A stretch of DNA of 64,000 nt, taken from positions 24,143,759-24,207,758 of the forward strand of contig CAIIXF020000009.1 of NCBI GenBank assembly GCA_903813345.2. The letters are read 5' to 3'. A program made the translations under genes and the position numbers. This stretch comes from Owenia fusiformis. Lineage: Eukaryota; Annelida; Polychaeta; Sabellida; Oweniidae. Shown here piece by piece: positions 522-39,500 of the stretch; position 1 is the stretch's first letter; every line of letters starts with the position of its first letter. The notes beneath the pieces were generated by a model. It saw only the letters and a program-made list of their open reading frames with translations, was not told the origin of the DNA and searched no databases.

Positions 522-3500
522 CTAGAAACAGATAAAACAAAGAAAAATGAAACGAATAGCGTCAAAAGTTAAATAGATTAGAGGCATTAATGGATATTGA
601 CATACCCCTTACTTATAGATTGGGATGATCCTCAGTGACAGAGGATTTCAGTCAATGATATGAAAGATACAGCTGTGCAGTAAAATCTCTATACAGTGAA
701 CACCTATAGAACCACAAAAATGTGTTCACTAAAGGTAGGTGTTCACTACAGAGGGGCAATTTTAAACAGAACTCACTCGAGAATGTGGTGAGAAGAAGTG
801 TTCACTAGACATAGGTGTTCACAAGAGAGAGTTGTTAACTAAGACAAGTTTTACTGAACTTGATATAAAGTCATTCTGTGGCTTTTATCTCCCCTCAATA
901 CATGCTAATTTCCCCCTTATGTTCATATTTTTCTCACCAGATGGAAAAAGCCATTGATATTCCATTTAAAAATATGCATTCATGCACCACTGAACAATGG
1001 AAAACAATATGTAATAAGGCCATAAGAAGTAGATTCTATGTTTCTACACAAACTCAAGAAAAAACACAAGCTTGTTTGCTGAGAAATGTATACATTTTAT
1101 GGGGATAAAAAGGGATGTATGCCAAAGTAATCAATAACACTGTCAATTTTGATGCACATCAAAGTATCCGGCATTTCATCTGATTCTGATTGAACAAAAT
1201 GCGATGGTACTTTCAGACCCTTGAGACTGCTATTTGGATGTGTTTGTTTTTTCTGATTTACTCAAAATCGTGCAAGCAAGGGGACGCAAAACAAAGAATC
1301 TCCTTCTGATGGCCTAATACCTGATGGCTAAAATAAATGATTCAAAGACTGGCTGAAAATGTTTACTGAAAGGTGTACAAATTAGTCTGTCTAGAATAGA
1401 AAAGTATAAGTGTTTTACAGTTTTACTTTTTTGTTTAACTAGACAACAGCATTGCCAAAGCGTAGCAAATCTTATCGAAACAGCCATGGCTGACATATTT
1501 ACAAACAAAGTATATAGCATAAAATCATAAAATAACACACAAAAAATGGGCACCATTTTCAAAATTGTTCCAAATTGTCATCAGAAAGTGTATTATGCTT
1601 CTAAGTAGGCATTTATAAAATTTCAACAAAATCGCACACACATACTGTACATGTCAATGGTGGCCATTTTTCAAAATGGCCGCCTACTTGCCAAAAATGT
1701 CATAAGACAGTGTGCCATGAGTATTCACATATCAAATATGAAAAAAATTGCTCTATTACATTTTGAGTTATAGTAAAAAACATAAAATAACAAACATACA
1801 AAAAATTGGTGGCCATTTTTCAATATGGCCTCCTACTCCACAAAGTGTCATTTGACATTGTGCCTTGCTTATTGTATTCACATATCATATGAAAAAAATT
1901 GCTGCACTACTTTTCGTGTTATAGTACAAAACATAAATAATTGCCGCCTTCTAACAAAAACATCATAAGACAGTGAGCCATGCTTATAGTATTCACATAC
2001 CAAATATGAACAAAATCACTCCACTACTTTTCAAGTTACAGTAAAAATCGTAAAAAAGCGTGTAAAGGCCCCCATTTTTCAAGATGGCTGCCATGTTCTT
2101 TTTCGGTATCTGCATTTCTAGCTTTATTAATGTCCTTTATAATTTCTTTACATTTAAAACATATTGCTATTACCGTTTTACATATTGTACCTTAATTACT
2201 GAAAATCAGCACTTAAATGGCCACCATTTTTAGATGAGAAGCCATTTTGAAAATTGGCTTTCAAGCTGAACTTCTACCCCCATAGGGTATATGTGTTCAA
2301 AATATACACAAAATCCAGCCAACAGTATATGAGTTATTGCCTGGATGGACGGACCTATATATGGACGTACATACGTACGGACGAACGGAAGCGTTCCCTA
2401 TATCCTTCCGAACTTCGTTTGATGGGATAATTATCACTAAATCATAACTGTATTAATTAGAAAGAGGAATGTTCATACATGATATTACTAAACTTAGGTT
2501 TATAACACTATTCAAAGATGACTCGATAAAAGAAATCAGACAAAATATTGGTTTATCATTTACTAATGTCAACCTCACCATACCTCATAACCTAGACTTT
2601 CACTGGGACTTTAAACTGCCACGTTATACTAATATTAAATAATTTCACAATTCTGTTACCTGAAAACATCTTCATTAATATGTTGAATATGAGGATCTTA
2701 CTGTTTGTGCTGGTATGTATTTACCACACAAGAAGCTTGGTTGAGGCAGAATGTGATTGCAAGCTAAGTGCATCTCAACCCCAAGTTCAACCAGAGATCA
2801 TAAAGAATAAACTTGACCAACAGGAACGTATCATTGATGGGTACGTATGTGTTTTTTTATTATTTCAAAACAAAATGCATATAAAAGTTGTTTTTCAATT
2901 GTAGATATGTGCCTTTTTATATGCTTCTACAGATTGACTTCCTAGCTTTTCTAACCTTAGTAAGACCTATTCTTTTGCAAAAGAGAAGTAAAAAAGAAAG
3001 AAAAGCTTTTCATCAACCATGTTATCAAGAAATAGGAAAGAACCCCCACAGACAAAATGCTTTATATTAGGATGCCCAATACAGAACATGCTTCTGCTGC
3101 TTCTAAAACGTTATGTGTATTGTTGCAAGCTAGATAACCAAATGCTTTAATTTTAAATTCACCCACAGAAATAAACACAAAGTATACATCCACACATTGC
3201 TCGCATTTCTTTTATGTTATACACTATGTTTTTTATTATCTTATATTTCTTATATAAATAGTGATACAACATTTGATGAAAAAACAGATTATTGCCGTAA
3301 CACCAAATAAATATTTTATAATAAAAAGAGAAATGTTGGGAATAACTAACCACTAATTTGGGGAAATTATTTGTTACAAGGATGTATATGTAACCTCCAA
3401 CATAGTTTTCCCATTCTTTCTATTGTATGAATATGTACTAATATGCAATAATTCTTTGATTCTAGCCTTGAGAAAAACTACGAAAATATTTTAAATGAAA

Positions 3501-6500
3501 ATAAATTCAAACTGGAAAGATTATCGAATGTTAAGCGAACATCCAAAGCCATGTATGAAACAGTCTATAAACTATGTGAGTAATAAACTATTTGAGTAAA
3601 GAGCTATGTGAGTAATGAGCCATGTGAGTACAAATGATTATCACTCATACATTTTTGAGGGTAAAAGGCTGATTTTCTAAAATTTAAAAATGTTGTAAAC
3701 TACATGTAGTATGTTATATATAAATAGATCAATAGCAATGTTTCTCAGTCCATATTCAAAGTGCCATAGTTTTGTATACTGTATTTAAGTTCATTATTGA
3801 ATAAAGCTACCTCTTATCAAGGACATCTAATGATAGACATCTTTGCTCTTATCATTATTGATTAAAGCTACTTGTTATCATAATTGAATAAAGCTACTTA
3901 TTATCACTATTGAATACAGCTACTTATCATCATTACTGAATAAAGCTAATTGTTATCATAATTGAATAAAGCTACTTGTTATCATTATTGAATATAGCTA
4001 CTAACAGATAACTAAATTTAAAACATAATTTTATTTAGCTGACCCATGTTCAACGAAAGGACATCTTCGCTGCCTTCACTCTGGCGAATGTATACACAGG
4101 CTATTTGTAAGTACAAATGGTAATGCTACGGTAGTAGTCACTATTACAATTGGTTATAGAGTTACAATATCTGTTTTGATCATGAAATTCCTTTTTCTAT
4201 ATATCTATGAATGAATTTTACTCCTTCCTAAGAATTAATTTTTTTGGGACTGAAAAAACGGTTCATATTGAGAGGTTTTCAGAAAAAACAGGTTTATCTG
4301 TATATTATATATACACCTTTTGATTCTTTAAATATAGGGTTGTGATGGTATAGTTGACTGTATGGATGGATCAGATGAGGATAAAGACCTTTGTTGTAAG
4401 TTAATATTCAAATTAATATCCAATATTCTATAATTTGGATCTCCATTCAGTTTTAAGTTTAATTTTATCACATTAGTTTTATTTATAATTTTATTTTATT
4501 CACAAGTATATTTTTAACCTGAAGATTCAATTCATATGAAAATGATTTTCAATTCTGCATCTTCATCTTTATAAAACCATTGCTAAAATTGAACTGCAAT
4601 CTTGGCATCATATATGTAACGCAGGCCCGTAGCCAGGGGGTTCGGGCGAACTCCCCCCTGACCAAAATTTCTTACAAAATCATGAATTTTTTACCATTCT
4701 GACTATTTTCTGAGTGATTTTTGGCCAAATTTGCGAAGTGAACCCCCCCTAGAATTTTTTGGAAAAGTGAATCCCCCTTGGAGAATTCTGGCAACGGGCC
4801 TGTAACAATTCTAATGTTTTCAGTGAATCCTGTACCAGTGGGAACAAAATTGAAGGCTTTCATCCCAGCCTACCAGACCTGCTTTCTGTCAGCAGTGACA
4901 GAAGTCAACGTCAAGGTCAGACCTGTTAGAACAGAGAGGCTACAGCATTTCCCACAGGTTATAAAAACATTCGGTGTTGCCGAGTTCAGCTTTAATGATT
5001 CAAATGGGAGGTTAGTTATTTTGTTACTTATTAATTCCAAAATTATTATGATGAACATATATTTCAAACTTAATCTGAGGTTTGTTCATGTTTTTTTTAG
5101 TAATCAACATTCAAAGTCTATAGTATTGTATTGTATCGTATTGTATCGTATCGTAATGTAACGTATGGTATTGTATTGTATTGTATTGTATTTTATTTAC
5201 CACCAATGAAGGTGAGCAATAGCTTTTGGGTACATTCCGTATACAGTCGTTATTAACGCATGTAATCATGGATGGCAGACCCAGGAACCCCTCCTCGAAG
5301 GAGCCCTTTTTTGTGCACTCATATATAGTCATACAAGTACATACCACAGCCTTTTTACGTGTTGTGGACCACTCAATCAAACACCCTGAAGTTCTTTACG
5401 CAAACAAGCAAATTAAGTTTTGCCTGAACCAGGGATCGAAAGCGGGACCTATTGCTTAAGATCGTTGAGCTTTATGGGTGGACTTGTTATTGTTAAAGGA
5501 ATATTCCTTGCTATACCATTTATTTTGTGATATGGTAGCTATAACCATATATCAGCTATAACCATATATACTTTCAATATTTAGCAGTCAATATTGATTT
5601 GAAGATGCACTGTTTATTTCAAGTGGGCTGTCACCTTTTCACTCTTCACATAGGAAGTGATGTCATGAACTATTAAATTTGCATATAGCGCTAGGGAAGG
5701 AGGTAACAAGAATGACATAGAGGTTCTTGTATGAGTATCTGTGCAAGATCTTCCATTCTTAATGAGCTTTGATAATACATATTCTTTATCAACTTGAAGA
5801 CGAGATAAAGAAATATTATCAAAGCGAGTCAAGAATGGACGATATTTCACAGGTACGAGTGCAAGAAAGTTTTTCTCATATGACTCTTTAAATTATGCCA
5901 TATTTATACATTTTTATGATCAAACTAAGTGAAAATAGCTTCAAACCAATGGAACTACATCTTTCAATAGTTATGACGTCATAACAATGTTGTAGAATAT
6001 AAATGGCTATGCATGGCAACAAAGCCCTATTGTTATGATGTCATTTATGATGTCATTTTGTAGAATGAGCATTGATACTCATAGTAACAGTATATCTGTT
6101 GTCATGTTGATGAAGTTTATAAACAAGTGATGTCATATAAGTAAATCTCATCTTGCACATGTGACTTTTTAGGATGAAAGATGGTAATATCTTGCATGGG
6201 GTAAACACATGGTTGTATCTTTGTTAGTCATATGAAAAAAAACTATCTGAATATTCTTTTTCAATTTTGTCAATGACTTAATTCTTCAGATAATCTCTTC
6301 TTTAATTCTATGTTGACAAGCCCTCAAAATATTTTTGCACAGAAAGTAATAACCACTTAGCCAGAAGTGATTTTCTGCTACTTTCCTACACTGTTATGGG
6401 CAACACAGGGAGATATGCCGATTACTCAATTAGTACAATATTAGTTGGTAAATTAACACTTTGGCAAAATCGTGCTCATGAGCACTCACGCTATGAGTGC

Positions 6501-9500
6501 TAATTTAGAACTAATTTTGTACTAACTGAGTACTCGGCATATGTATGAGTGCTCATTGAGTAATGAAAAATCAATGGAATTAGTGCTACTTTATCACTCA
6601 CCATATGGCTTACGGACAACTCATCCCCTAGACAACTCATCCCTGGACAACTCATCCCCTACACAACTCATCCCTGGACAACTCATCCCCTAGACAACTC
6701 ATACCCTTGACATCTCATCCCCTGGACAACTCATCCCCTGGACATCTCATCTCCTAGATAACTCATCCCCTGGACAACTTATCCCTTAGACAACTCATCC
6801 CCTAGACAACTCATCCTTTATCACATGAAGCCAAATTAGTTTTTTGGAAAATAAATATTTATTAAATACATCTTGAATCATTCTAAATATTATTTTTCAC
6901 TTTATTGACACAAATAAAATGGTCAAACAGTCAAACGTGCCATTAAAACATTATCTCTTGTCCTTATATTACATGACTTATTATTTCATGACAAAAAATA
7001 AAATTTTCTCTCTGCATAATTTTGTAACATGAATTTCAGTAACTTCATCTGTGACTGCTGTGAAAAAATAATCTTTGGATTGAAGAATATTTGAACATTG
7101 AACAACAAACATATTATGTCATCAAAGGAGCTTATAACATCAAAGCAGCTTCTTCGATCAATGTTAATATAATATTGAAATTGTATATTAAAAGTAAAAT
7201 TTAAGGTAAATATTAAAAAAACAAATTACAGATTAATTGGTTGACTATATCCTTGACAATACCATAGTAGTACCATGGTATATCACAGTTTTTTAAACAA
7301 CTTTCCAGATTTTCCCTCAAGAAAATCTTTGTTCACTTGTACTCAGAAGACAACAGAATCGTAGCTTTAATACCTCACAATTGTTTATTATATATGACCA
7401 TAGCCATCTTTTAGATAGATCCAAAGAGATAGCTTTGTGCAAACTAAGTAAACTATTGTTATGTAAATGGAAAGAGTTAGAAGTGCAGATCTTAACCATT
7501 TTTGAAGTTCTGTTTACGTAACAAAAGTGAGGTATTAAACCGAGGATCGTGTTGTCTTCTGAACTATTTGTTCGCATGTACACATGCCTACTACTGGAGA
7601 AATAAGGAAAAGACAAAAATCGTACCTTTGAGTCTCTGACATTTTGTTACCCAAACAATCTGTTTACAACATAATCGAGTGGAGTACCAGTGTTCATGTA
7701 ATATATGATTTTGAATCTTAAAACTGATCATGATAGCCAATACATTTAAAAATCATTTGAATTATACATGAATTAATAATATTACATTAAATTACTCAAA
7801 CATGCCAAAGGATGAGTTGCCCAGGGGATGAGTTGTCTAGAGGATGAGGTGTCCAGGGGATGAGTTGTCCAGGGATGAGTTGTCTAGGGGATGAGTTGTC
7901 CGGTTACCCACCATATGAGTACTCAATTACTATTAAAAATGCAACAAATCAGTACTCATGTCATAAGTGCTCATTTAGTTCTAATATTTACTGAAATGCA
8001 TACTCAATTAGAGCTAAAATGCCATGGGTACTATTTTAGTACTCGGCATATCTCCCTGTGAAGGGTATTCGAGTTGATGATATCACCTCCTGTGTAAAAT
8101 CTGACCATAATCAAAACATTTTCCTGTGTTTTGCTATGTTATAGCTTCCATGTTGTAGCTTCCATAATAGGAGAGAATATCCCTTTAAATTTACGAAGAT
8201 AATTATTAAAGTTGGATTTCTGTAGGATTCATATAGTTATGAAAGATTCACAAAGTTGCAAAAATAGTAATGTCACACCTGCTTTCATTCGTAGTTTAAT
8301 AGCGTCCTCTGACCCTATTACTTTTTGAATGATGTCTTACCTTACATTAATATTGTGATGTTTAAATTTCCATTCATGGTTATTGTTATCTTGCAAACTA
8401 AAAAAGATTCAATATTACCCCGTCAGATATCTTTGGCGAAATATAGCGGAATATGCAATATTTTAGTGTTAACTTGAATTTTCAAACACTTTATGGCCCA
8501 TATATAAAAACAATAAAAATCCATTGAAAAAAGTTGTTCTGAATAAAAAAAATCTAGTTCTTATACCTAATGATACAACATTATTTAACAAGGCATTAAC
8601 ATGAAAAAATGTCACCCCCTTGTTGCCCACAATATTATGAGTTCAATCTATTCAGATTTGAATTTCTGAAAACTTGTAGATTACTACTAAATAAACTGGT
8701 CAATTTGAAGCAAGTTGAAAAAATACCCTTTTTAAGACTGACATGGTCATTGAAGGTGAAATCTTAAGTCTTAAGTCAGATTTGAACTTCTGAGAACATG
8801 AAAATGATTTTGAAAAAAAGTCAGTCTAAACACCACCGCTGTCCACCAACCGCCGCCCCCAAAACTGTGAATATTTATTTTCTGCTAAAATTGTCAAATA
8901 ATATTGTTGTTACTTTTGTTGCTAAATTGGAGGAAAATTCAAATATTTGAAATCACATATAGAAGACCATTTTCAAAATTAAATCATGAAAAATAATATT
9001 TGGATGATAAAATCATCCAAATTTTGAACAAGACTTAATGATTTCTTTTCAGGGCCATAGAGGAAGTTATGAACTACGTTAAAGTCCAAGAAATTGCTTC
9101 AGGGAAAGCACATGTCGATGTGAATAATGACAACTTCAACTTTAAGATATATGGAGAGCTAACGTATTATGTGGGCTCCTCTAAAAATTATGGGGACATT
9201 TATAAAGGATCAAATTTTGATCAACTTTGTGGGCGTTCTACCGTCAAAATAAACTGACTAACAATATACTTTACAGCTTTATCAAATTAGTAAATTCTCT
9301 GTTATGTGTATATTTCAATCAATAGCAACCATGTAACACCAAAATGTCAATAAAAAATTTATGCAGATTTACAATTTTCTGTACTCTGGGAATTTCTTAA
9401 GTTAAAGTTTATTTTTTTCAAACAATGTGAGTGCAAACTGCCAGATACATGATATATGATAAAAAGAAGTTATCCATATACATTGTATAAGTAGGCTCCA

Positions 9501-12500
9501 AATGACACATATCACAAACCCATTGGATGTGCTGAAAGGAAGAGGTGCGTTTATTGGCAAATACCCCTATGGTCAAAATGAATAATTCTTAGGTGTAACA
9601 TGAAGAATAGAATGTCATATAACTCTTTGGAAAATATTAAAGTGCTCGGGCACACATAGGCTGAGATAGGGGCTATTTAGTTTAGTGAGGTTGTATTGAC
9701 TTACATGGGGCTGTTCATCACTGACTTAACATGAGGATATCAGCAGATCCCAATAGAGGCCATTGGTTTTTTGATTATCACAAAAATACCAAAAATACAC
9801 TATGACCTGAATCGATTGCAAACTTAATAATTTCACAATATGACACTATTGGCTTATCTCATCAAATGTGCAAATATGAAGTTTGCAATCGATTCAGGTC
9901 ACTATTACAGTTTTACATATTCTACCTTAATTACTGAAAATCAGCACTAAAATGGCTGCCATTTTTACATGAGAAGCCATTTTGAAAATTGGCTTTCGAG
10001 CTGAACTTCTAGCCCCATAGGGTATATGTGTTCAAAATATGAACAAAATCCGGCCTACAGTATTTGAGTTATTGCCAGGATGGACGGACGTATGTATGGA
10101 CGTACATACGTACGGACGAACGGAAGCGTTCCCTATATCCTTCCGAACTTCGTTTGATGGGATAATTATCACTAAATCATAACTGTATTAATTAGAAAGA
10201 GGAATGTTCATACATGACATTACTAAACTTAGGTTTATAACACTATTCAAAGATGACTCGATAAAAGAAATCAGACAAAATATTGGTTTATCATTTACTA
10301 ATGTCAACCTCACCATACCTCATAACCTAGACTTTCACTGGGACTTTAAACTGCCATGTTATACTAATATTAAATAATTTCACAATTATGTTACCTGAAA
10401 ACATCTTCATTAATATGTTGAATATGAGGATCTTACTGTTTGTGCTGGTATGTATTTACCACACAAGAAGCTTGGTTGAGGCAGAATGTGATTGCAAGCT
10501 AAGTGCATCTCAACCCCAAGTTCAATCAGAGATCATAGAGAATAAAGTTGACGTACAGGAACGTATCATTGATGGGTGCGTATGTGTTTTTTTATTATTT
10601 CAAAACAAAATGCATATAAAAGTTGTTTTTCAATTGTAGATATGTGCCTTTTTATATGCTTCTACAGATTAACTTCATAGCTTTTCTAACGTTAGTTAGA
10701 CCTATTCTTTTGCAAAAAAAAGTAAAAAAGAAAGAAAAGTTTTTCATCAACTATGTTATCAAGAAATAGGAAAGAACCCCCACAGACAAAATGCTTTATA
10801 TTAGGATGCCCAATATAGAACATGCTTCTGCTGCTTCTAAAACGTTATGTGTATTGTTGCAAGCTAGATAACCAAATGCTTTAATTTTAAATTCACCCAC
10901 AGAAATAAACACAAAGTATACATCCACACGTTGCTCGCATTTCTTTTATGTTATACACTATGTTTTTTATTATCTTATATTTCTTATATATATAAATAGT
11001 GATACAACATTTGATGTAAAAACAGATTATTGCCGTAACAGCAAATAAATGTTTTATAATAAAAAGAGAAATGTTGGGAATAACTAACCACTAATTTGGG
11101 GAAATTGTTTGTTACAAGGATGTATATGTAACCTCCAACATAGTTTTCCCATTCTTTCTATTGTATGAATATGTACTAATATGCAATAATTCTTTGATTC
11201 TAGCCTTGAGAAAAACTACGAAAATATTTTAAATGAAAATAAATTCAAACTGGAAAGATTATCGAATGTTAAGCGAACATCCAAAGCCATGTATGAAACA
11301 GTCTATAAACTATGTGAGTAATAAACTATTTGAGTAAAGAGCTATGTGAGTAATGAGCCATGTGAGTACAAATGATTATCACTCATACATTTTTGAGGGT
11401 AAAAGGCTGATTTTCTAAAATTTAAAATTTTTGTAAACTACATGTAGTATGTTATATATAAATAGATCAATAGCAATGTTTCTCAGTCCATATTCAAAGT
11501 GCCATAGTTTTGTATACTGTATTTAAGTTCATTATTGAATAAAGCTACCTCTTATCAAGGACATCTAATGATAGACATCTTTGCTCTTATCATTATTGAT
11601 TAAAGCTACTTGTTATCATAATTGAATAAAGCTACTTATTATCACTATTGAATACAGCTACTTATTATCATTATTGAATAAAGCTAATTGTTATCATAAT
11701 TGAATAAAGCTACTTGTTATCATTATTGAATATAGCTACTAACAGATAACTAAATTTAAAACATAATTTTATTTAGCTGACCCATGTTCAACGAAAGGAC
11801 ATCTTCGCTGCCTTCACTCTGGCGAATGTATACACAGGCTATTTGTAAGTACAAATGGTAATGCTACGGTAGTAGTCACTATTACAATTGGTTATAGAGT
11901 TACAATATCTGTTTTGATCATGAAATTCCTTTTTCTATATATCTATGAATGAATTTTACTCCTTCCTAAGAATTAATTTTTTTGGGACTGAAAAAATGGT
12001 TCATATTGAGAGGTTTTCAGAAAAAACAGGTTTATCTGTATATTATATATACACCTTTTGATTCTTTAAATATAGGGTTGTGATGGTATAGTTGACTGTA
12101 TGGATGGATCAGATGAGGATAAAGACCGTTGTTGTAAGTTAATATTCAAATTAATATCCAATATTCTATAATTTGGATCTCCATTCAGTTTTAAGTTTAA
12201 TTTTATCACATTACTTTTATTTATAATTTTATTTTATTCACAAGTATATTTTTAACCTGAAGATTCAATTCATATGAAAATGATTTTCAATTCTGCATCT
12301 TCATCTTTATAAAACCATTGCTAAAATTGAACTGCAATCTTGGCATCATATATGTAACGCAGGCCCGTAGCCAGGGGGTTCGGGCGAACTCCCCCCTGAC
12401 CAAAACTTCTTTCAAAATCATGCAGTTTTTTACCATTCTGACTATTTTCTGAGTGATTTTTGGCCAAATTTGCGAAGTGAACCCCCCCTAGAATTTTTTG

Positions 12501-15500
12501 GAAAAGTGAATCCCCCTTGGAGAATTCTGGCAACGGGCCTGTAACAATTCTAATGTTTTCAGTGAATCCTGTACCAGTGGGAACAAAATTGAAGGCTTTC
12601 ATCCCAGCCTACCAGACCTGCTTTCTTTCAGCAGTGACAGAAGTCAAAGTCAAGGTCAGACCTGTTAGAACAGAGAGGCTACAGCATTTCCCACAGGTTA
12701 TAAAAACATTCGGTGTTGCCGAGTTCAGCTTTAATGATTCAAATGGGAGGTTAGTTATTTTGTTACTTATTAATTCCAAAATTATTATGATGAACATATA
12801 TTTCAAACTTAATCTGAGGTTTGTTCATGTTTTTTTTAGTAATCAACATTCAAAGTCTATAGTATTGTATTGTATCGTATTGTATCGTATCGTAATGTAA
12901 CGTATGGTATTGTATTGTATTGTATTTTATTTACCACCAATGAAGGTGAGCAATAGCTTTTGGGTACATTCCGTATACAGTCGTTATCAACGCATGTAAT
13001 CATGGATGGCAGACCCAGGAACCCCTCCTCGAAGGAGCCCTTTTTTGTGCACTCATATATAGTCATACAAGTACATACCACAGCCTTTTTACGAGTTGTG
13101 GACCACTCAATCAAACACCCTGAAGTACTTTACGCAAACAAGCAAATTAAGTTTTGCCTGAACCAGGGATCGAAAGCGGGACCTATTGCTTAAGATCGCT
13201 GAGCTTTATGGGTGGACTTGTTATTGTTAAAGGAATATTCCTTGCTATACCATTTATTTTGTGATATGGTAGCTATAACCATATATCAGCTATAACCATA
13301 TATACTTTCAATATTTAGCAGTCAATATTGATTTGAAGATGCACTGTTTATTTCAAGTGGGCTGTCACCTTTTCACTCTTCACATAGGAAGTGATGTCAT
13401 GAACTATTAAATTTGCATATAGCGCTAGGGAAGGAGGTAACAAGAATGACATAGAGGTTCTTGTATGAGTATCTGTGCAAGATCTTCCATTCTTAATGAG
13501 CTTTGATAATACATATTCTTTATCAACTTGAAGACGAGATAAAGAAATATTATCAAAGCGAGTCAAGAATGGACGATATTTCACAGGTACGAGTGCAAGA
13601 AAGTTTTTCTCATATGACTCTTTAAATTATGCCATATTTATACATTTTTATGATCAAACTAAGTGAAAATAGCTTCAAACCAATGGAACTACATCTTTCA
13701 ATAGTTATGACGTCATAACAATGTTGTAGAATATAAATGGCTTAATGCATGGCAACAAAGCCTTATTGTTATGATGTCATTTATGATGTCATTTTGTAGA
13801 ATGAGCATTGATACTCATAGTAACAGTATATCTGTTGTCATGTTGATGAAGTTTATAAACAAGTGATGTCATATAAGTAAATCTCATCTTGCACATGTGA
13901 CTTTTTAGGATGAAAGATGGTAATATCTTGCATGGGGTAAACACATGGTTGTATCTTTGTTAGTCATATGAGAAAAAACTATCTGAATATTCTTTTTCAA
14001 TTTTGTCAATGACTTAATTCTTCAGATAATCTCTTCTTTAATTCTATGTTGACAAGCCCTCAACATATTTTTGCACAGAAAGTAATAACCACTTAGCCAG
14101 AAGTGATTTTCTGCTACTTTCCTACACTGTTATGGGCAACACAGGGAGATATGCCGATTACTCAATTAGTACAATATTAGTTGGTAAATTAACACTTTGG
14201 CAAAATCGTGCTCATGAGCACTCATGCTATGAGTGCTAATTTAGAACTAATTTTGTACTAACTGAGTACTCGGCATATGTATGAGTGCTCATTGAGTAAT
14301 GAAAAATCAATGGAATTAGTGCTACTTTATCACTCACCATATGGCTTACGGACAACTCATCCCCTAGACAACTCATCCCTGGACAACTCATCCCCTACAC
14401 AACTCATCCCTGGACAACTCATCCCCTAGACAACTCATACCCTGGACATCTCATCCCCTGGACAACTCATCCCCTGGACATCTCATCTCCTAGATAACTC
14501 ATCCCCTGGACAACTTATCCCTTAGACAACTCATCCCCTAGACAACTCATCCTTTATCACATGAAGCCAAATTAGTTTTTTGGAAAATAAATATTTATTA
14601 AATACATCTTGAATCATTCTAAATATTATTTTTCACTTTATTGACACAAATAAAATGGTCAAACAGTCAAACGTGCCATTTAAACATTATCTCTTGTCCT
14701 TATCACTGTTCCACAACTGGATGACTCTAACTGCAGTTAGCTTCATTCAAGATGGTTGCCGAGATCATTTCGTTTTCGATAAACCTCCGATTTCAGCTAA
14801 AATAAGTTGAATCTGGATTCCAAATGTTTCGCCATGCAAATTAATAAAGCTACGATGGTAAATAACCACAAATAAATGCTCAAACAACCGCGATATAGGA
14901 GAATTTTAAAGAAAACGGCTTCACTTAGAATGACTCTAACTGAAGTTGATGATGACGTCATGATGGCGTAGATCATCATCTTCAGTTAGAGTCATTCTAA
15001 GTGAAGTCGTTTTCTTTAAAATTCTCTAATATTATGGGTGTTAGAGCATTCATTTGTGGTTGAATACAATCATAGTTTTATTAATTTGCATGGCGAAACT
15101 TTTGGAATCAAGATTCAACTTAGTTTAGCTGAAATCGGAGGTTTATGGAAAACGAAAGAATCTCGGCAACCATCTTGAATGAAGCTAACTGCAGTAAGAG
15201 TCATCCAGTTGTGGAACAGTGCTTATATTACATGACTTTTTATTTCATGACAAAAAATAAAATTTTCTCTCTGCATAATTTTGTAACATGAATTTCAGTA
15301 ACTTCATCTGTGACTGCTGTGAAAAAATAATCTTTGGATTGAAGAATATTTGAACATTGAACAACAAACATATTATGTCATCAAAGGAGCTTATAACATC
15401 AAAGCAGCTTCTTCGATCAATGTTAATATAATATTGAAATTGTATATTAAAAGTAAAATTTAAGGTAAATATTAAAAAAACAAATTACAGATTAATTGGT

Positions 15501-27500: not shown

Positions 27501-30500
27501 AAAAAGACCCTTTTTAACACTGACATGGTCATTGAAGATGAAATCTTAAATCTTAAGTCAGATTTGAACTTCTGAGAACATGAAAATGATTTTGAAAAAA
27601 AGTCAGTCTAAACAGTATTTGTTAAGTTATTGGAAGTTGTAAGAATTTGTTACAGACGCCAACTGCCGTCCACCAACCGCCAACCATCAACCACCAACCG
27701 CCGCCACCAAAACTGTGAATACTTATTTTCTGCTAAAATTGTCAAATAATATTGTTGTTACTTTTGTTGCTAAATTGGAGGAAAATTCAAATATTTGAAA
27801 TCACATATAGAAGACCATTTTCAAAATTAAATCATGAAAAATAATATTTGGATGATAAAATCATCCAAATTTTGAACAAGACTTTAAAGTTATTTAATGA
27901 TTTCTTTTCAGGGCCATAGAGGAAGTTATGAACTACGTTAAAGTCCTAGAAATTGCTTCAGGGAACGCACGTATCGATTTGAAAAATGACAACTTCAATT
28001 TCAAGATATATGGAGAGCTAACGTATCATGTGGGCTCCTCTAAAAATTTTGGGTGCATTTATAAAGGATCAAATTTTGATCAACTTTGTGGGCGTTATAC
28101 CGTCAAAATAAACTGACTAACAATATACTTTACAGCTTTATCAAATTAGTTAATTCTCTGTTATGTGTATATTTCAATCAATAGCAACCATGTAACACCA
28201 AAATGTCAATAAAAAATTTATGCAGATTTACAATTTTCTGTACTCTGGGAATTTCTTAAGTTAAAGTTTATTTTTTTCAAACAATGTGAGTGCAAACTGC
28301 CAGATACATGATATATGATAAAAAGAAGTTATCCATATACATTGTATAAGTAGGCTCCAAATGACACATATCACAAACCCATTGGATGTGCTGAAAGGAA
28401 GAGGTGCGTTTATTGGCAAATACCCCTATGGTCAAAATGAATAATTCTTAGGTGTAACATGAAGAATAGAATGTCATATAACTCTTTGGAAAATATTAAA
28501 GTGCTCGGGCACACATAGGCTGAGATAGGGGCGATTTAGTTTAGTGAGGTTGTATTGACTTACATGGGGCTGTTCATCATTGACTTAACATGAGGATATC
28601 AGCAGATCCCAATAGAGGCCATTGGTTTCTTGATTATCACAAAAATACCAAAAATACACTATGACCTGAATCGATTGCAAACTTAATAATTTCACAATAT
28701 GACACTATTATTTATCTCATCAAATGTGCAAATATGAAGTTTGCAAGCGATTCAGGTCACTATTACAGTTTTACATATTCTACCTTAATTACTGAAAATC
28801 AGCACTAAAATGGCTGCCATTTTTAAATGAGAAGCCATTTTGAAAATTGGCTTTCGAGCTGAACTTCTAGCTCCATAGGGTATATGAGTTCAAAATATGA
28901 ACAAAATCCGGCCTACAGTATTTGAGTTATTGCCCGGATGGACGGATGTATGTATGGACGTACATACGTACGGACGAACGGAAGCGTTCCCTATATCCTT
29001 CCGAACTTCGTTTGATGGGATAATTATCACTAAATCATAACTGTATTAATTAGAAAGAGGAATGTTCATACATGACATTACTAAACTTAGGTTTATAACA
29101 CTATTCAAAGATGACTCGATAAAAGAAATCAGACAAAATATTGGTTTATCATTTACTAATGTCAACCTCACCATACCTCATAACCTAGACTTTCACTGGG
29201 ACTTTAAACTGCCACGTTATACTAATATTAAATAATTACACAATTATGTTACCTAAAAACATCTTCATTAATATGTTGAATACGAGGATCTTACTGTTTG
29301 TGCTGGTATGTATTTACCACACAAGAAGCTTGGTTGAGGCAGAATGTGATTGCAAGCTAAGTGCATCTCAACCCCAAGTTCAATCAGAGATCATAAAGAA
29401 TAAACTTCACCTACAGGAACGTATCATTGATGGGTGCGTATGTGTTTTTTATTATTTCAAAACAAAATGCATATAAAAGTTGTTTTTCAATTTATATGCT
29501 TCTACAGATTGACTTCCTAGCTTTTCTAACATCAGTGAGACCTATTCTTTTGCAAAAGAGAAGTAAAAAAGAAAGAAAAGCTTTTCATCAACTATGTTAT
29601 CAAGAAAAAAAATTCACCCACAGAAATAAACACAACCTATACATCCACATGTTGCTTGCATTTCTTTTATGTTATACACTATGTTTTTTAATATTATCTT
29701 ATATATAGTGATACAACATTTGATTACAGATTATTGCCGTAACACCAAATAAATATTTTATAATAAAAAAGAGAAATGTTGGGAATAACTAACCACTAAT
29801 TTGGGGAAATGTTTTGTTACAAGGATGTATATGTAACCTCCAACATAGTTTTCCCATTCTTTCTATTGTACTAATATGCAATAATTCTTTGATTCTAGCC
29901 TTGAGAAAAACTACGAAAATATTTTAAATGAAAATAAATTCAAACTGGAAAGATTATCGAATGTTAAGCGAACATCTAAAGCCATGTGGGAAACAGTCTA
30001 TAAACTATGTGAGTAATGAACTATTTGAGTAAAGAGCTATGTGAGTAATGAGCCATGTGAGTACAAATGATTATCACTCATACATTTTTGAGGGTACAAG
30101 GCTGATTTCTAAAATTTAAAATTTTTGTAAACTACATGTAGTATGTTATATATAAATAGATCAATAGCAATGTTTCTCCGTCCATATTCAAAGTGCCATA
30201 GTTTTGTATACTGTATTTAAGTTCATTATTCAATAAAGCTACCTCTTATCATTATTGAATAAAGCTACTTGTTATCATAATTGAATAAAGCTACTTATTA
30301 TCATTATTGAATATAGCTACTTATTATCATTACTGAATAAAGCTACTTGTTATCATTATTGAATAAAGCTGCTTATTATCATTATTCAATATAGCTACTA
30401 ACAGATAACTATATTTTAAACATTATTTTATTTAGCTGACCAATGTTCAAAGAAAGGACATCTTCGCTGCCTTCACTCTGGCGAATGTATACACTGGCTA

Positions 30501-33500
30501 TTTGTAAGTACAAATGGTAATGCTACAGTAGTAGTCACTATGACAATTGGTTACAATAGAGTTACAATATCTGATTTTATCATGAAATTCCTTTTTCTAT
30601 ATATTTATGAATGAATTTTACTCTTTCCTAAGAATTGATTTTCTTGACACTGAAAAAATGGTTCATTTTGAGCGGTGCTCAGATTAGAGAGGTTTTCAGA
30701 AAAACAAGTTTAACTGTATATACCTTTTGATTCTTTAAATATAGGGTTGTGATGGTATAGTTGACTGTACGGATGGATCGGATGAGGATAAAGATCTTTG
30801 TTGTAAGTTGGTATTCAAATTAATATCCAATATCCTATAATTTGGATCTCCATTCAGTTTTAAGTTTAATTTTATCACATTAGTTTTATTTACATTTTTT
30901 TTCACAAGTATATTTTTAAGACGATTCAATTCATATGAAAATGATTTTCAATTCTGCATCTTCATCTTCATAAAACTATTGCTAAAATTGAACTGCAATC
31001 TTGGCATCATATATGTAACCCAGGCCCGTAGCCAGGGGGTTTCGGGTTCGGGCGAAACAGGTGAACAACAAGAAAACAAATGTGTACAAATGTCCCCACC
31101 TATGGGTGATCCCGTCAAATGGTAATCCTAAAAATGAGTAGACAAGACTTTACCGACACAATTTGAGGACGGAATATCCAAGATGGCCACCTTAAAATTT
31201 ACCCAGAATGCCAAAAAATTAGTCAGTTCTGTGATCTCTCTCACAGTTAACCAGAAAACATGTAAACAAGGCTTTACAAACAAGATTTTATGACGGAAAA
31301 TCCTTAATGGCTGCCTTGACATTTATCCAGAATGCCAAAAAACTAATATCTTCTAGATTTTCATACTAAGAATCATCCCTGAAAATTTGAAATTGATTTA
31401 CCAAACAGTTCACCTGGAAATGCATTGACAAAACTTAACAGACAAGATTTTAGGACAGAAAATCCAAAATGGCTACCTTGACATTTACCCAGAATGCCCA
31501 AAAACTAATCAGATCTTGATTTTTATACTAAGAATCATCCCTGAAAATTTGAAATTGATCTACCGAATGGTTCACCTAAAAACGCGTAGAGGACTTTACA
31601 GGCAAGATTTTAAGACAGAAAATCCAAAATGGCTGCCTTGACATTCATCCAGAATGCCAAAAAACTAATCAGATCTAGATTTTCATACTAAGAATCATCC
31701 CTGAAAATTTGAAATTGATCTACCAAACGGTTCACCTGGAAATGCGCAGACAAGACTTTACAGACAAGATTTTAGGACAGAAAATCCAAAATGGCTGCCT
31801 TGACATTTACCCAGTATGCCAAAAAACTAATTAGATCTAGATTTTCATACTAAGAATCATCCCTGAAAATGTGAAATTGATGTACCACACGATTCACCTA
31901 AAAATGCGTAGACAAGACTTTACGGGCAAGATTTTAAGATGGAAATTCCAAAATGGCTGCCTTGACATTTATCCAGAATGCCAAAAAACTAATCAGATCT
32001 AGATTTTCATACTAAGAATCATCCCTGAAAATTTGAAATTGATCTACAAAACAGTTCACCTGGAAATGCGTAGACAAGACTTAACAGACAAAATTTTAGG
32101 ATGGAAAATCCAAAATGGCTGCCTTGACATTTACCCAGAATGCCCAAAAACTAATCAGATCTAGATTTTCATACTAAGAATCATCCCTGAAAATTTGAAA
32201 TTGATCTACCAAACGGTTCACCTGAAAACGTGTAGACAAGACTTTACAGACAAGATTTTAGGACGGAAAAGCCAAAATGGCCGACAATAAAAAAGTGATT
32301 ATGAGTTTTTGCTGATTTTTCTTTACAAAATTATCACATATAACTACTGTTAACAATAACATAGGCTTTTACAACAAAGTACACCTGAAATTATTTATAA
32401 AGCTACAAAATACTTAAAGTATGAAAAGTGAAAAACACCATTCAATATGATACAAAGTATTATCGCGCGCTAACTTTTCTTAAAACATTCAAAATGGCTG
32501 ACATGACTGAGCTAACAGGTCCAAAACCTAATCAGATCTAGAATGAAGTGAGCTGAACAAGATGTTAAAGTTTCAAAAGCAACTGTGAAGCCATTTTTCT
32601 TAAAGTTTGCAGTAAGGATTTTAGCATTTGACTTCAAAATGGCCGACAGGAAGTAGGTATTGAGTTAAATTTTTTTCATCCACATCTAGATGCACTCATA
32701 AGTTATCCCTGAACATTTGAAGGTGATATCTGTAGCGGTTTTGGAGAAAACTGCCGGACGTACAGACGGACAGACGGACAGACAGATGCGCCTAGGCCGA
32801 CAATATGGCCCCACACTATGTGGTAGGGACATAAAAAGAACCCCACCCCTAGATTTTTTTGGAAAAGTGAACCCCCCTTGGAAAATTCTGGCTACGGGCC
32901 AGTAACAATTCTACTGTTTTCAGTGAATCCTATACCAGTGGGAACAAAATTGAAGGGTCTCATCCCAGCCTACCAGACCTGCTTTCTTTCAGCAGTGACA
33001 GAAGTTACACTCAACGTAAGACCTGTTAGAACAGAGAGGCTACAGCATTTCCCACAGGTTATAAAAACATTCGGTGTTGCCGAGTTCAGCTTTAATGATT
33101 CAAATGGGAGGTTAGTTATTTTGTTACTTATTAATTCCAAAATTATTATGATGAACATATATTTCAAACTTAATCTGAGGTTTGTTCATGTTTTTTTAGT
33201 TATCAACATTCAAAGTCTATAGTATTGTATTGTATCGTATTGTATCGTATCATATCGTATCGTATCGTATCGTAACGTATTGTATCGTATCGTAATGTAA
33301 CGTATGGTATCATATTGTATTGTATTGTATTGTATTTTGTTTACCACCAATGAAGGTGAGCAATACCTTTTGGGTTCATTCCGTATACAGTCGTAATTAA
33401 CGCATGTAATCATGGATGGCAGACCCAGGAACTCCTCCTTGAAGGAGCTCTGTTTTCTTTTTTGTACACTCATACATAGTCATACAAGTACACACCACGG

Positions 33501-36500
33501 CTTTTTGTACAAGTTGTGGACCACTTAGGCAAAAGCCCTGAAGTAATTGACGCAAACAAGCAAATTAAGTGTTGCCTGAACCGGGGATCGAATCCAGGAC
33601 CTACTGCAGTACACGTGCTTAAGCTGAGCTATATGGGTGGACTTGTTATATAAAGGAATATTCCTTGCTATCATGTACCATTTCTCTCATGATATGGTAG
33701 GTTTAATAACAATATATACTTTCCACATTTAGCAGAACATGGAAAATGTTTTGAAATGGTCAATATTGATTTCAAAATGCACTGTTTATTTCAAGTGGGC
33801 TGTCACCTTTTCACTCTTCACACAGGAAGTGATGTCATGAACTATTAAATTTGCATATAGCACTAGGGAAGGAGGTATCAAGAATGACAAAATTAGATGA
33901 ATATTCTTTGTCAATTTTGTCAATGACTAAATCCTTCTGATAATTTCCTTTTTAATTCTATGTTGACAAGCCCTCAAATATTTTTGCACAGAAATTGAGA
34001 ACCACTTGGCCAGAAGTGATTTTCTGCTACTTTCCTACACTGTTATGGGCAAGGGTATAAAAGTTTCCAGTTTATAATATCACTTCCTGTGAAAAATCTT
34101 AAAAGATAGCCTACTGGAAATTATCAATATATTTTTAAATGATCAATATTAACCATATCAAAACATTTTCACATGTTTTGCGATGTTATAGCTTCCATAA
34201 TAGGATAGAAATTGTCTGGCAGGGAATATCCCTTTAAATTTACAAAGATAATTATTAAAGTTGCATTTCTGCCATAAAGTTATGAACGATTTGCAAAGTT
34301 GCAAGGATAGTAGTGATGTCACACCTGCTTTCATTCGTCGTTTAGTAGCATTCTCTGACCCTATTTTGTGAATAACTTTCATTAATATTGTAATGTTTAA
34401 ATTTCAATTCATGGTTATTGTTATCTAGCAAACTAAAAACATTCAATATTACCCCATCAGATTATACCTAATAATACAACATTATCTAAAGAATAAATTG
34501 TTGTATTTAGAGACTTTTTGTTGCTATATTGGAGGGAAATTCAAATATAATTTTCAAAATTAAAATGAAAAATAATATTTGGATGATAAAATCATCCAAA
34601 ATTGGAACAAGACTTTAAAGTTGGTTAATGATTTCTTTTCAGGGCCATAGAGGAAGTTATGAACTTAGTTAAAATCCAAGAAATTGCTTCAGGGAAAACA
34701 CTTATCGATTTGAAAAATGACAACTTCCACTTCAAGATACGTGCAGAGCTATCGTATCATGTGGGGTCCTCTAAAACTTTTGGGTACATTTATAAAGGAT
34801 CAAATTTTGATCAACTTTGTGGACGTTATTCTCTCAAAATAAACTGACTAATAATATACTTTACAGCTTTATAAAATTAGCAAATTCTCTGTTATGTGTA
34901 TATTTCAATCAATAGCAATCATGTTGAGCAGTTTCTAAATTGTATCTAAACATAAATATACATGTAACACCAAAATGTCAACAAAATTGTCAATAAAAAT
35001 TTTATGATACAATAAATTGAAAAAATGTTAGTTTTGTGAAATTTCATGGCATAACCTATTACATGAGATTATATACATGACATAGTGGCTAATTTTGTCT
35101 TATATTGTATATCATAGCAGAATATAATAGTGTGATAAAAACCAACAATAACCGAACCAAGGGAGTCAAAAACCGAACTGAACCAAAAATGTTAAAACCA
35201 CTTAAAGAGGAAAACTTCAGTTAATTGATACACCTGGGTGTCTTACGTAACATGTGAAATGCCTACCAGATAACAAACAGCCAATCAGCTGTCAGCAGAG
35301 GATGTGGCTTAGCAGTAGTGGGGTCATTTATATTTATAGCATGACTTTTCATTGACATGTGCTTTAAGAAAAGAAATCTATAACATCACAACCATTACAA
35401 CATAATATCTTTGTAGATTAATGAGACTGTATAAATGTAACTGTATAAATGTAGTTTGTATAATTGTAGTCTGGCCATGGCCTGATAACACAGTGGCCAT
35501 GCTTTAATAAATTCTAAAATTCTAAATTCTTTATAAACACAAGCACAAGGCATATTGCAGCTTTGTTTACATGTTTTAACCTCTGACCTGAGAGCATTGC
35601 AGACTATTGGTCAATTTGAAATTAAATCCACATCCAACTGCTCATTTTTAATGAGATCTTTGAATATTTTTTTTCAAATATGCTTGAAATATACTCAATA
35701 ATACTTGAATATGATTTCATATTTTTTATTATGGCTTTTTACATGACTGTAGCAAATTTGGGTCTTTGATACTTCTTAGAAATCATGATATCGGCAAAAT
35801 CAAAATAAATTTACTGGTTTCAGTGATTCAAACATTTTCAACAGACATAATTGACTGTTCTTGGCTGTTCCATCTTCCTTTTATACCTGGTTTTCCCCTT
35901 TAACTGTTGAAATAATTATGTGTGTCAGCTGATAGCTTGTATCTTTTTCATTCAATTAGAAATATCATCAGAGTTTTTCTCAACATCAGAGTTTTCTTGA
36001 TCTACATCTTCATTATTTAAGCGCACGCATGTTTACAAATAGCAATTTTCCCCAGAACAAAATAAGGTTAATGATGGTCAGAGCTCTTTTTTTTTCTTTT
36101 TTTTTTTTCGCTTGATTCACCATTTTTTATTAATCCTAAATTGGCTACAAATGCCAGAAAAATATACATCCTTAACTCCATTTTTAAGTTCCGTATGAAT
36201 TGACCTTAACTTGTAAGTAGTCACTGACCATAATGGTCAGTTCTTATCCATAGAAAACTCCACACCCAATTCTCAGAAATAGTTGTTGAACTTTGTTGTA
36301 TTTATTGTTATCTTCACTTAGAAGCCTGTAGCATGTAGACTATCTGAACTAGCTAGAACTAAGAGGCTAGCTCTCTGCTAGGTAGGAGTGTCAGGTTTCA
36401 ATCCTACAAGATTGCTCTTTCGGTTAGTATACATGGTAAAGTTTATACTCCGCCTAACTTATAAGTGGTTGGCACACTTCTTGCGCTAATTGCATAAATA

Positions 36501-39500
36501 TCACACAAATATTTCAGTTAGATTTTTCTTATTTTTAAAACTGATTTATAAGGCAGCTGTTTATTCCTAGCATATCAATCTTGAAATAACATATCTTATC
36601 TTGATATCAATTACTTATAATTCACATACTTCAGTCAGTCCAAACTTATGTGACCTAACATATACCTTATCTTGTTCCTGGTTTGTACAAAATATGATAT
36701 GTTCAGGAAATTGTAGTTTATTATTTAGCTGGCAATCTTTCATCATTCTTTTTTTTTCCCCTTTATTTCACTATATTTTTTACAGTTACAGTATAAATAC
36801 ATATTCATAACCAGGGATTTGAAAATGGTTAATACTATAAGGGTGCAAGTATCTCAAAACAATCACAAATTATATAAAGTATCATTGTTATCCTATGCTG
36901 CGTTTAGAGTTGCCCTATGTAACTGGAGATCCAGAAACAACTTGGCGGTCGTAAATGCCTCAGATAAAAATTCACTGTGCACAATTTGCTAAATACTAAT
37001 CATTAATGGTAGAAATAAAACGTTATGCCCCTTAACTTAAATTAAAGCTGGCCAGAGCAGTGTTTAACTTCATGTAATTATTCATTAAGATTCACTTTAT
37101 CTGTACAGATAAATACATCTTTCATATTTTATAAAATTTGGAGCTGGTTGTATGAGGGTGCAAGTGTTTCAAATTTACAATCACAAATTATATAAAGTAT
37201 CATTGTTATCCTATGCTGCATTTAGGGTTGCCCTATGTAACTGGAGATCCAGAAACAACTTGGCGGTCATAAATGCCTCAGATAAAAATTCACTGTGCAC
37301 AATTTGCTTAATAAATGTAATTCAGTTTAAGAGTGAATATTGTCATCCTCTAAATTTTAAATCTTGACAGAGTGCAAAAAGTTCAAATGTTCAATTATTT
37401 AATTGAATTCACTTTATCTGGCTCTGAAAAATAAATAATCTGTGAATCACTGTCATTTGTCATTTAGCCTCATTTCAAATTCATTGTCATTAGATAAGAA
37501 AAGGAAAATATTTCATGCTATGTTGAAGAGTCCTCAAGATAGATTAATCCAAATTGTTTACTTGATGTTCTTTACTTTTAAAAGTTTTCAAAAGGTTTGA
37601 ATGATATTGTCAGGGTTCAATTGCAACTTGATCATATTGTCAAACTTGGTCAATGATCTCTCTGCAGCAGCTTTGCACATTTCATTAAAATCCTTTGTAC
37701 TGGTGTCTTCCTCAGTTTCCAAATCATTCTCCATAACTTGAGTTTGTATATTTCTTCGACTGCACTTAGTCAGTTGAAACGTATCAGTAGACTTAGTTTT
37801 TGTTAATAATGTTCAGAGCTCAGTGGTTTCGGCTAACTCTCGAACCCCTAGTTATTGTATATACAAAAATAATAATGCCATACCTTATCAGTATGCCCAA
37901 TGAAAAATCTCTGTGCACCATTTGCTATCTGCATAGTGACCACTACAGCATGGCATGGGTAGACTATAGACCTACCACTGTTGGTCCATAACGCCTGAAG
38001 TTTAAAATGTTACAGTCAGTGGGTAAATGAACATGTAACGTTACATAAGGGCGGGGGGTCCTTAAAAATAAACAAATTATTAACACATCTGAATCCCTTG
38101 AAATAAAAAATAATGCACATTGTATTCTAAATCTACTTAGTTTCACATCTTTTGGATTGTTTAAGTACATGAAAAATTACTTAATTATTGGTAACTTTAC
38201 TTTTCACTTGTTTATACATGTATATTAGGGGTCCCGCGATTCATGGATATATCGATGCATCGGCTCGTTTGGTGACGATACGAGCGTATCGATACGAAGA
38301 CTCAAATATTGATACACCAAAAATATTATTAACATACCTGAAATCCACCATATTTTGCCGAAATCTACTGAATATTTGACTTTTTTGAGAAATTGTTCTT
38401 ATATCTTTTGTTTGGTTTCTCGCTGGACATGACACGCCCAAAATGGTGTATAAATGCGAACAGAATGTTTAGCGGATTGACAGTCAAAATGCGAACAAAT
38501 AACTCGTGTCTTGATCAACGTACTTTGTTTATAATTATTCTATATACTTTTTGACAATTTAGCCATGAATAAATATAATCTTTGAACTTTTTATTCGATA
38601 GAACGCTGCGTTAAAAATTGCCTACTAATATTGATAACTCTTATAAAAAACCGAACAATATTTACGTTCGGAGTATTAATGTTGACCGGAGTTTGAAAGT
38701 TTTGAAAACAATTGATAGAATTATGGTCGTGTAAATATCAAACTTGGGTAGTTGTGATATACTAATACGGCCCCTAATAGAAAATTTACTGTAGTACTTT
38801 GTAACATTCCTCAGTAAAGGGAAAGCAAAATATGCATAGCTGGCTACTATTCAGCAGGTAGGCTTGATACTTGACAATAGTTTTTATGCTGCATCTTAAT
38901 CAAATGTCACAGCAAGTGATAGACTTTCAACCCGACCTCAGCTTCGTCAGTTTTGCACCCCCCCCCCTCCCCCGGTTCAACTACACTATTATGTATCGTA
39001 TCGTTGCTCGTATCGTGACCTGAGTATCGAGATACGTATCGTATCGTTTCATAATGTATCGTGGGACCCCTAATGTATATGTGTCTTTGACATCCAGTAC
39101 ACGTTAGTGTTTAAAGAGATATAAAATAGGTTGACATACATCTTTAGTACTTGCTCCTCCAAAGCCAACAATTCTTCTCAACTGCAGTATGGGGTCAGGC
39201 TGAAGACTCTGTAAGTACAATGTGGTAATATGTAAGCACAATGTGGTAATATGTAAGTACAATGTGGTAATATATAAGCACAATGTGGTAATATGCAATC
39301 CATTGCAAGTACAAAGCGGTAATATTTTATACACAATACAAATAAAAAGTGATCATATGTTATCATAATGTGGGAATGAATATGCAATTACACAATGGTA
39401 ACAAAATCACAAAATAATAACATCTAACCACAACATAGTACCATCCATAAATATGGTCAAAGTGTTAGACAAGGCATAAACATGCAAAATGTCACCACCA

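Follow-up and report, generated by a model that had tools for sequence, protein, structure and literature searches.

A putative antisense tandem array of linker-like genes in a WDR90 intron of Owenia fusiformis, with a related block on a second contig

Four intact genes on the plus strand lie inside a single large intron of WDR90, a gene of the minus strand, in a 64,000-nt stretch (the window) of contig CAIIXF020000009.1 (C9) of Owenia fusiformis. We consider it highly probable that they form an intron-nested antisense tandem array in which the units have transcripts of their own while WDR90 is spliced across them, and that a block of this locus was later copied to another contig, C5. In the history that we propose, a six-exon linker-like gene would have settled in the WDR90 intron and been amplified in place, from a founding unit of ~7.7 kb, into four intact units, every one of which has its own upstream region and polyadenylation signal and would be transcribed independently from the plus strand. 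Transcription of WDR90 would run across the array on the minus strand, and splicing would join 37884 to 521. The WDR90-proximal end of the array may have been copied to C5 later, once one or more tandem duplications had taken place.

The WDR90 host gene and its large intron

Nine coding exons of WDR90 lie 5' of the large intron on the minus strand (37884..43419), at 43419-43327, 43112-42801, 42520-42350, 41841-41716, 41248-41165, 40651-40538, 40244-40050, 39208-39140 and 37994-37884, and two more follow it on the same strand at 521-378 and 194-135 (peptide limits; span 135..521). The exons were chosen by visual inspection of open frames and splice sites, with exon limits given as peptide limits and split codons left out, and the CFA20 and WD40 parts of the model are backed by domain matches. 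No start exon was located further 5' of 43419, where it is expected. The identification of the host as WDR90 in an earlier note on this DNA was confirmed by a CFA20 domain (PF05018, scoring 129.3 bits with the cut-off at 24) and by profiles of the second and fourth propellers of WDR90/POC16, whose matches follow the order of the gene along the minus strand between C9:24141055 and 24110986 and extend the gene ~33 kb beyond the window. On C9 beyond the window, PF23393 gave seven matches (two marked over the cut-off) and PF23342 gave six (four marked over the cut-off); matches were also obtained in control genomes (2 of 14 and 1 of 14, respectively), so the two profiles are not exclusive to WDR90. 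Other WD40 loci score more weakly with both.

WDR90 is present as a single copy in assembly GCA_903813345.2, as judged by a sequence search that returned 23 matches, five of them with at least 91% identity and all inside C9:24143893-24184002. We therefore dropped the candidate readings of a WDR90 that ends at 37.6 kb or takes its 3' exons from a second locus. The remaining 18 matches reached at most 35% identity, which upheld the view that there is no second full WDR90 locus.

The host intron (522..37883, minus strand) is 37,362 nt long, lies in phase 0 and has canonical GT-AG ends, with the donor AAG|gtatgg after 37884 and the acceptor ttatctgtttctag before 521. The earlier note had joined 37884 to 521, both in phase 0, and was correct to the single base; its nesting, strand and gene number likewise hold. 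The flanking exons encode two parts of one WD40 unit and, when joined, give an alignment with FAP52 that has no gap where they meet (query 373-487; whole-sequence E 6.7e-21). An EML propeller profile matched the exon 11 side alone at 9e-11, left the exon 10 side unmatched and matched the joined sequence at 3.2e-17.

The large intron is 33 to 204 times as long as the nine other intron gaps measured, as might be expected if the array separated WDR90 into two transcription units whose halves no longer meet in one mRNA. However, the donor, the acceptor and the phase are intact, as is the WD40 unit that spans the junction; the downstream propeller matches go on in order; and an intron length of 37 kb is not unusual in animal genomes, all of which makes a split gene very unlikely. 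Tandem arrays and high-copy repeats are also difficult to assemble, and no other locus corroborates the right junction (34848-37883), so that the array might have been placed within WDR90 by an assembly error. We regard such an error as extremely unlikely, given that the window contains 0 N, that a single 38.9-Mb contig carries both WDR90 parts in order and the search gave no second copy, that the left junction is repeated on C5, and that the units are distinct, with inserts of their own, rather than identical copies.

Four linker-like genes and their divergence

The four nested genes, u1 to u4, each have six exons and encode 262 aa; their splice phases are consistent, no stop interrupts their frames, and the coding parts of all four fall inside 522-37883. 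All are on the plus strand: u1 (2680..9257) has exons at 2680-2840, 3466-3575, 4039-4106, 4338-4395, 4824-5010 and 9053-9257; u2 (10415..19798) at 10415-10575, 11204-11313, 11777-11844, 12076-12133, 12563-12749 and 19594-19798; u3 (20956..28116) at 20956-21116, 21742-21851, 22291-22358, 22590-22647, 23508-23694 and 27912-28116; and u4 (29273..34847), the most diverged, at 29273-29433, 29899-30008, 30436-30503, 30745-30802, 32924-33110 and 34643-34847. The tandem junction between u1 and u2 is at 9902, where the copied unit starts with ~265 nt of a repeat, and a longer copy of the same repeat precedes u1 at 1437-2431. AATAAA follows the stop codon after 91 nt in u1-u3 and after 144 and 163 nt in u4. 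The predicted proteins look secreted.

Depending on the segment, the units differ by 0.6 to 12%, and the proteins of u2-u4 are 87-96% identical to that of u1. Each unit also carries its own inserts. The 789-nt coding sequences contain no indels in any of the six pairs. For the three pairs that include u4, which are not independent of each other, introns 1-3 contain 11-13 indels, a rate that predicts 7.7-9.1 for the coding sequence. The 400 nt upstream differ by 1.0-3.5% in these u4 pairs as against 6.0% in the introns, and this low upstream divergence could be due to gene conversion. Where u4 is not involved, the upstream region exceeds the introns in divergence in two of the three pairs (2.8 versus 1.4% and 2.5 versus 1.9%), so that conservation of a promoter is not demonstrated.

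The second array on C5

C5 contains a 24.8-kb block that comprises two complete units, a partial third with exons 1 and 2 only, and WDR90 intron DNA. The intron DNA that adjoins exon 11 in the window (546..1189) has its second copy at C5:25977125-25977727 (89%), and in the block it reaches to ~25 nt from exon 11. The left junction, at which unit 1 meets WDR90 intron DNA, recurs on C5, and the u1/u2 junction is also spanned by alignments in the C5 array. Two copies of a high-copy repeat enclose the block, past which no continuation into WDR90 exon 11 was found; the C9 sequence continues without this flanking repeat both at 546 and beyond exon 2 of u1. The repeat resembles rolling-circle elements.

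The C5 flanks of 17.7 and 16.2 kb contain 196 and 179 frames, and inspection by eye of the 22 longest per flank, a weak test, showed no host gene around the array. A synaptophysin-like gene (MARVEL domain; named by look) seems to have its end at ~25993.2 kb on C5, and coding-looking frames, two pieces of which have no Pfam match, lie at ~25942-25946 kb. In a tree of the exon 1 region, u1 of C9 groups with the first C5 unit (support 0.99). Trees built from the exon 5 and exon 6 regions unite the two C5 genes rather than grouping genes by position, which makes a later exchange or duplication on C5 likely.

Between u1-u3 and the C5 genes, pN is 0.025-0.032 and pS 0.048-0.064 (pN/pS about 0.4-0.65); that pN is lower than pS points to some amino-acid constraint. 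Among the four C9 copies, where changes are few, pN/pS ranges from 0.6 to 1.5 and does not demonstrate recent purifying selection between them, and some copies may thus be redundant. Several pairs have a higher pN than pS in the last exon, but the counts are small and we do not claim positive selection.

The direction of copying can be argued both ways. C5 units 1 and 2 are themselves an array with the same founding junction, and the repeats obscure direction, so the array might have arisen on C5 and been inserted into the WDR90 intron afterwards. The C5 block, however, stops inside a unit; its other end, so close to exon 11, implies that an insertion would have hit the branch-point region of that exon; and the repeat copies that bound the block on C5 do not interrupt C9, either at 546 or beyond exon 2 of u1. 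We therefore consider an origin on C5 fairly unlikely and, from breakpoint arguments alone, the block was most likely copied out of WDR90, in the direction C9 to C5. A pN/pS near 1 among the C9 copies would also suit four decaying duplicates without a product. This too is unlikely, and distinctly so, because all four genes retain intact frames, splice sites and LDL-A signatures, pN/pS of u1-u3 against the C5 genes is only about 0.4-0.65, and six dispersed paralogues share with u1-u4, and retain, an identical exon layout.

Known nested genes and haemoglobin linkers

The C5 block, with array units and WDR90 intron DNA together, is what is new here. PMC3240667 and PMC4394429 describe multigene nesting for TipE, GMC oxidoreductases, KRTAP5 and NF1, with OMG, EVI2A and EVI2B in NF1 intron 30 and KRTAP5-1 to -6 within MOB2 (PMC4394429). 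The earlier note knew of no description of such an arrangement, which may hold for the pair of WDR90 and linker-like genes but does not hold for nested families. The nested family of PMC3240667 likewise has several members in one intron of an unrelated single-copy host, with escape from nesting reported in two species; it differs in being old, conserved across insects and overlapping in its terminal exons, whereas the WDR90 array has near-identical units antisense to the host and a block duplicated on a second contig. Of the cases in PMC4394429, NF1 shares with WDR90 the presence of several antisense genes in one intron, and MOB2 that of a paralogue family within one host gene, but the NF1 guests are not a tandem family and the host and guest genes are others.

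Near-identical genes that are nested on C9 and apparently free on C5 allow the effect of nesting on expression to be compared. Interference between a guest gene and its host intron is usually judged by comparing unlike genes; if the C5 array is free, as seen, the two arrays would provide a natural nested/free comparison in one genome.

On sequence comparison, the u1-u4 proteins are distant relatives of haemoglobin linkers and not standard linkers. The linker C-terminal domain (PF16915) matched none of ten linker-like proteins at E 0.1 (the four C9 proteins and six paralogues, with the two C5 array proteins left out of the scan) and all three C6 linkers; a search of the genome with it gave three matches, all on C6. 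A first suspicion drawn from this restriction to C6, that the window genes are unrelated to linkers, was overturned by the spliced proteins and by profile comparison, in which linker-like proteins matched linkers at 99.4% over residues 21-222. The C-terminal part alone matched the linker profile at 91.6% (E 8e-7, 86 columns), so that the homology extends past the LDL-A module; a PDB profile search with that part alone returned no match. In common with the linker chains of annelid hexagonal-bilayer haemoglobin (PF16915; PDB 22jw, 2gtl), the proteins have a signal-like start (by eye), one LDL-A module, an identical ten-cysteine frame, profile similarity and, as compared by eye, exon boundaries around the LDL-A module and within the C-terminal domain. 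Unlike those chains, they have no PF16915 match and an extra intron within the LDL-A module, and the final part of the C-terminal domain fails to align.

The earlier term "linker-like" is thus apt as a statement of homology, by profiles, ten cysteines and exon layout, and fails for a standard linker; the accompanying proposal of a role in respiratory-pigment assembly was not borne out, as the proteins fail the profile that the three C6 linkers pass. The genes represent a sister family of haemoglobin linkers that has diverged and occupies several loci, beside a separate cluster of true linkers. We regard as evenly balanced the broader reading that a segmental duplication carried part of a nested family, together with the adjoining intron edge, out of its host, with ends set by the high-copy repeat, and that the linker-like genes may be a separate secreted family of common ancestry with linkers that is no longer part of the blood pigment. 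LDL-A modules in general are judged to fit the linker LDL-A cysteine signature too, as printed in PMC6400237; this signature is present in all 12 linker-like proteins.

Sequence-level continuity of WDR90 across the large intron

The earlier note had placed four genes antisense within a single intron of the centriole gene WDR90, and its account of their anatomy, coordinates and strand was correct. On the minus strand, inspection of frames and splice sites by eye gave nine WDR90 coding exons between 43419 and 37884 and another two between 521 and 135; the exon ends at 37884 and 521 lie 37,362 nt apart, compared with 183 to 1145 nt for the nine other WDR90 gaps measured. The large intron is in phase 0 on both sides with canonical GT-AG ends, and the exon junction cuts one WD40 unit, with GHTDK before it and VSCISLNGSS...RVWDF after it. 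When joined, the exon piece aligned with FAP52/CFAP52 structures with no gap at the junction and scored higher against an EML propeller profile than either half. A CFA20 domain is present in the N-terminal part of WDR90. Outside the window, the profile for the second propeller of WDR90/POC16, PF23393, matched seven times at C9:24141055-24137222, with two matches flagged as exceeding the cut-off, and the profile for the fourth, PF23342, matched six times down to C9:24110986, with four so flagged; all lie on the minus strand with gene order kept. A second WDR90 locus was sought with the intron-spanning piece across the 498 Mb genome, in which the window occupies C9:24143759-24207758, and all five matches of at least 91% identity, among 23, fell at the C9 locus. 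Splicing phase, the joined WD40 unit, the CFA20 domain, the ordered propeller matches and the genome search together support the conclusion that WDR90 is single copy in this assembly and, at the sequence level, unbroken, in line with the proposed continuation from 37884 to 521.

The guest genes and their relation to haemoglobin linkers

The four plus-strand guest genes (u1-u4, within 522-37883) each have six exons with identical phases, and the 789-nt frame is intact in all four. By eye, the proteins comprise a signal peptide, a helical stretch, an LDL-receptor class A (LDL-A) module split by an intron and a C-terminal domain from two exons. Within-window blastn showed that the genes are tandem units whose copied unit begins inside a repeat, at 2167 (u1), 9902 (u2), 20443 (u3) and 28760 (u4), suggesting a founding period of approximately 7.7 kb. 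In the three pairs that include u4, introns 1-3 carried 11-13 indels and the coding sequence none, against 7.7-9.1 expected at the intron rate; the upstream 400 nt were the least diverged part of these pairs, and in two of the three pairs without u4 the upstream part had diverged more than the introns. Among the C9 copies pN/pS ranged from 0.6 to 1.5, so that amino-acid constraint is not established for recent copies, and between u1-u3 and the two genes of the C5 array described below it was about 0.4 to 0.65.

We examined ten linker-like proteins with Pfam, namely the four from C9 and six paralogues, leaving out the two from the C5 array. The paralogues, fetched from C1, C4 (two), C5, C8 and C11, share the six-exon layout of u1-u4; at E < 1e-4, exons were also matched at C1:22.4, C2:7.1, C4:27.28 and C9:36.8 Mb. 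All ten proteins matched LDL-A, the sole family over its cut-off in u1 and u4, and none matched the linker C-terminal domain PF16915 at E 0.1. This miss is informative because PF16915 was matched by all three linkers joined from exons at C6 (27.03-27.05 Mb), one of which lacks its first exon. The best PDB match of u1 was haemoglobin linker 1 (22jw, E 2.1e-11), with the LDL receptor scoring equally through the shared module (E 2.2e-11). Profile comparison of the linker-like proteins with the C6 linkers gave 99.4% over residues 21-222, and the C-terminal part alone gave 91.6% (E 8e-7, 86 columns); a PDB search with the linker-like C-terminal profile alone returned no match. Introns before and after LDL-A and inside the C-terminal domain are common to both groups by eye, whereas the linker-like genes have an additional intron within LDL-A. 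All of the linker-like proteins (12/12), as well as the two C6 linkers having all exons, share a cysteine frame: CxC near the mature-protein start, six cysteines within LDL-A and two more in the C-terminal part, with extra cysteines in some proteins. By these comparisons the relation to haemoglobin linkers is real, and the guest proteins are best described as a linker-like sister family rather than filed as linkers, since PF16915 is missed yet profiles, introns and cysteine frame fit linkers. Linker homology in the earlier note therefore stands, while its attribution to respiratory-pigment assembly was too strong.

The true linker genes are clustered at C6:27033000-27050500 (L016, L017), each with PF16915 matched and an undivided LDL-A exon. 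Diverged linker-like exon matches are grouped at C2:6.97-7.09 Mb and C9:36.81-36.82 Mb.

A second array on C5

The genome search that gave these exon matches also found near-identical exons on the minus strand at C5:25.95-25.98 Mb. The block (about C5:25952882-25977727, loci L005-L008) holds two complete linker-like genes and a third with only exons 1 and 2; the first codon of unit 1 is ATT, with an in-frame ATG as the fourth. The u1/u2 tandem junction is common to C9 and the C5 block, which also includes window 546-1189, WDR90 intron DNA that is repeats in parts and stops about 25 nt from exon 11. Of 1665 candidates 40 were scored, and among these the whole of 546-1000 was matched on C9 and C5 alone. 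At both ends, to within a few bases, the block meets the end of a copy of one high-copy repeat, about 1.0-1.15 kb long, and the two copies have the same orientation. This repeat was matched at all 40 scored places (query included) of 3621 first-look candidates and has an inverted copy of its 5' end near its 3' end, a structure reminiscent of rolling-circle (Helentron/HINE-like) elements. Copying from C9 to C5 is, in our own judgement, considerably the likelier direction, given that the third unit is truncated, that one edge of the block falls within WDR90 intron DNA and that these repeats stand at its ends on C5.

In the exon 1 region tree C5 unit 1 paired with u1 (0.99), as would be expected had the copied block included a two-unit junction or more. 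Trees for the exon 5 and 6 regions unite the two C5 genes, and later exchange on C5 is therefore likely; the exon 2 tree is disturbed by an insert in C5 unit 1. A partial look at the block's flanks (16-18 kb) revealed no host gene, and the C5 array is apparently free of a host.

A short high-copy repeat with inverted ends occupies 1005-1318 inside the WDR90 intron, and window 1190-1356 is missing from C5.

Known nested genes and other features of the window

Nested genes are widespread: about 10% of Drosophila and about 1% of human genes are nested (PMC4394429), with 63% of human nested genes antisense (PMC3192792), and NF1 intron 30 hosts three antisense genes (PMC4394429). TipE/Teh genes inside CG18675, GMC oxidoreductases inside Flotillin-2 (both PMC3240667) and six KRTAP5 genes in MOB2 (PMC4394429) are, like u1-u4 in WDR90, families within a host gene. 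The WDR90/linker-like pair was not found in the literature sampled on WDR90 introns or nesting and on annelid nested tandem arrays, a search that does not prove absence; in PMC6400237, a table gives Owenia fusiformis with one and three sequences, and the main text lacks the word "intron". The suggestion that no such arrangement had been described may hold for this pair but overstates novelty, as nested families are already in print; what is added here is the apparently free twin array on C5.

Elsewhere in the window, a 565-aa open frame on the minus strand (51702-53399) resembles, by eye, a LINE-type element in its reverse transcriptase region. Exon-like frames at 57507-58199 on the plus strand show some resemblance to a gene for a 2-oxoglutarate/Fe(II) oxygenase.
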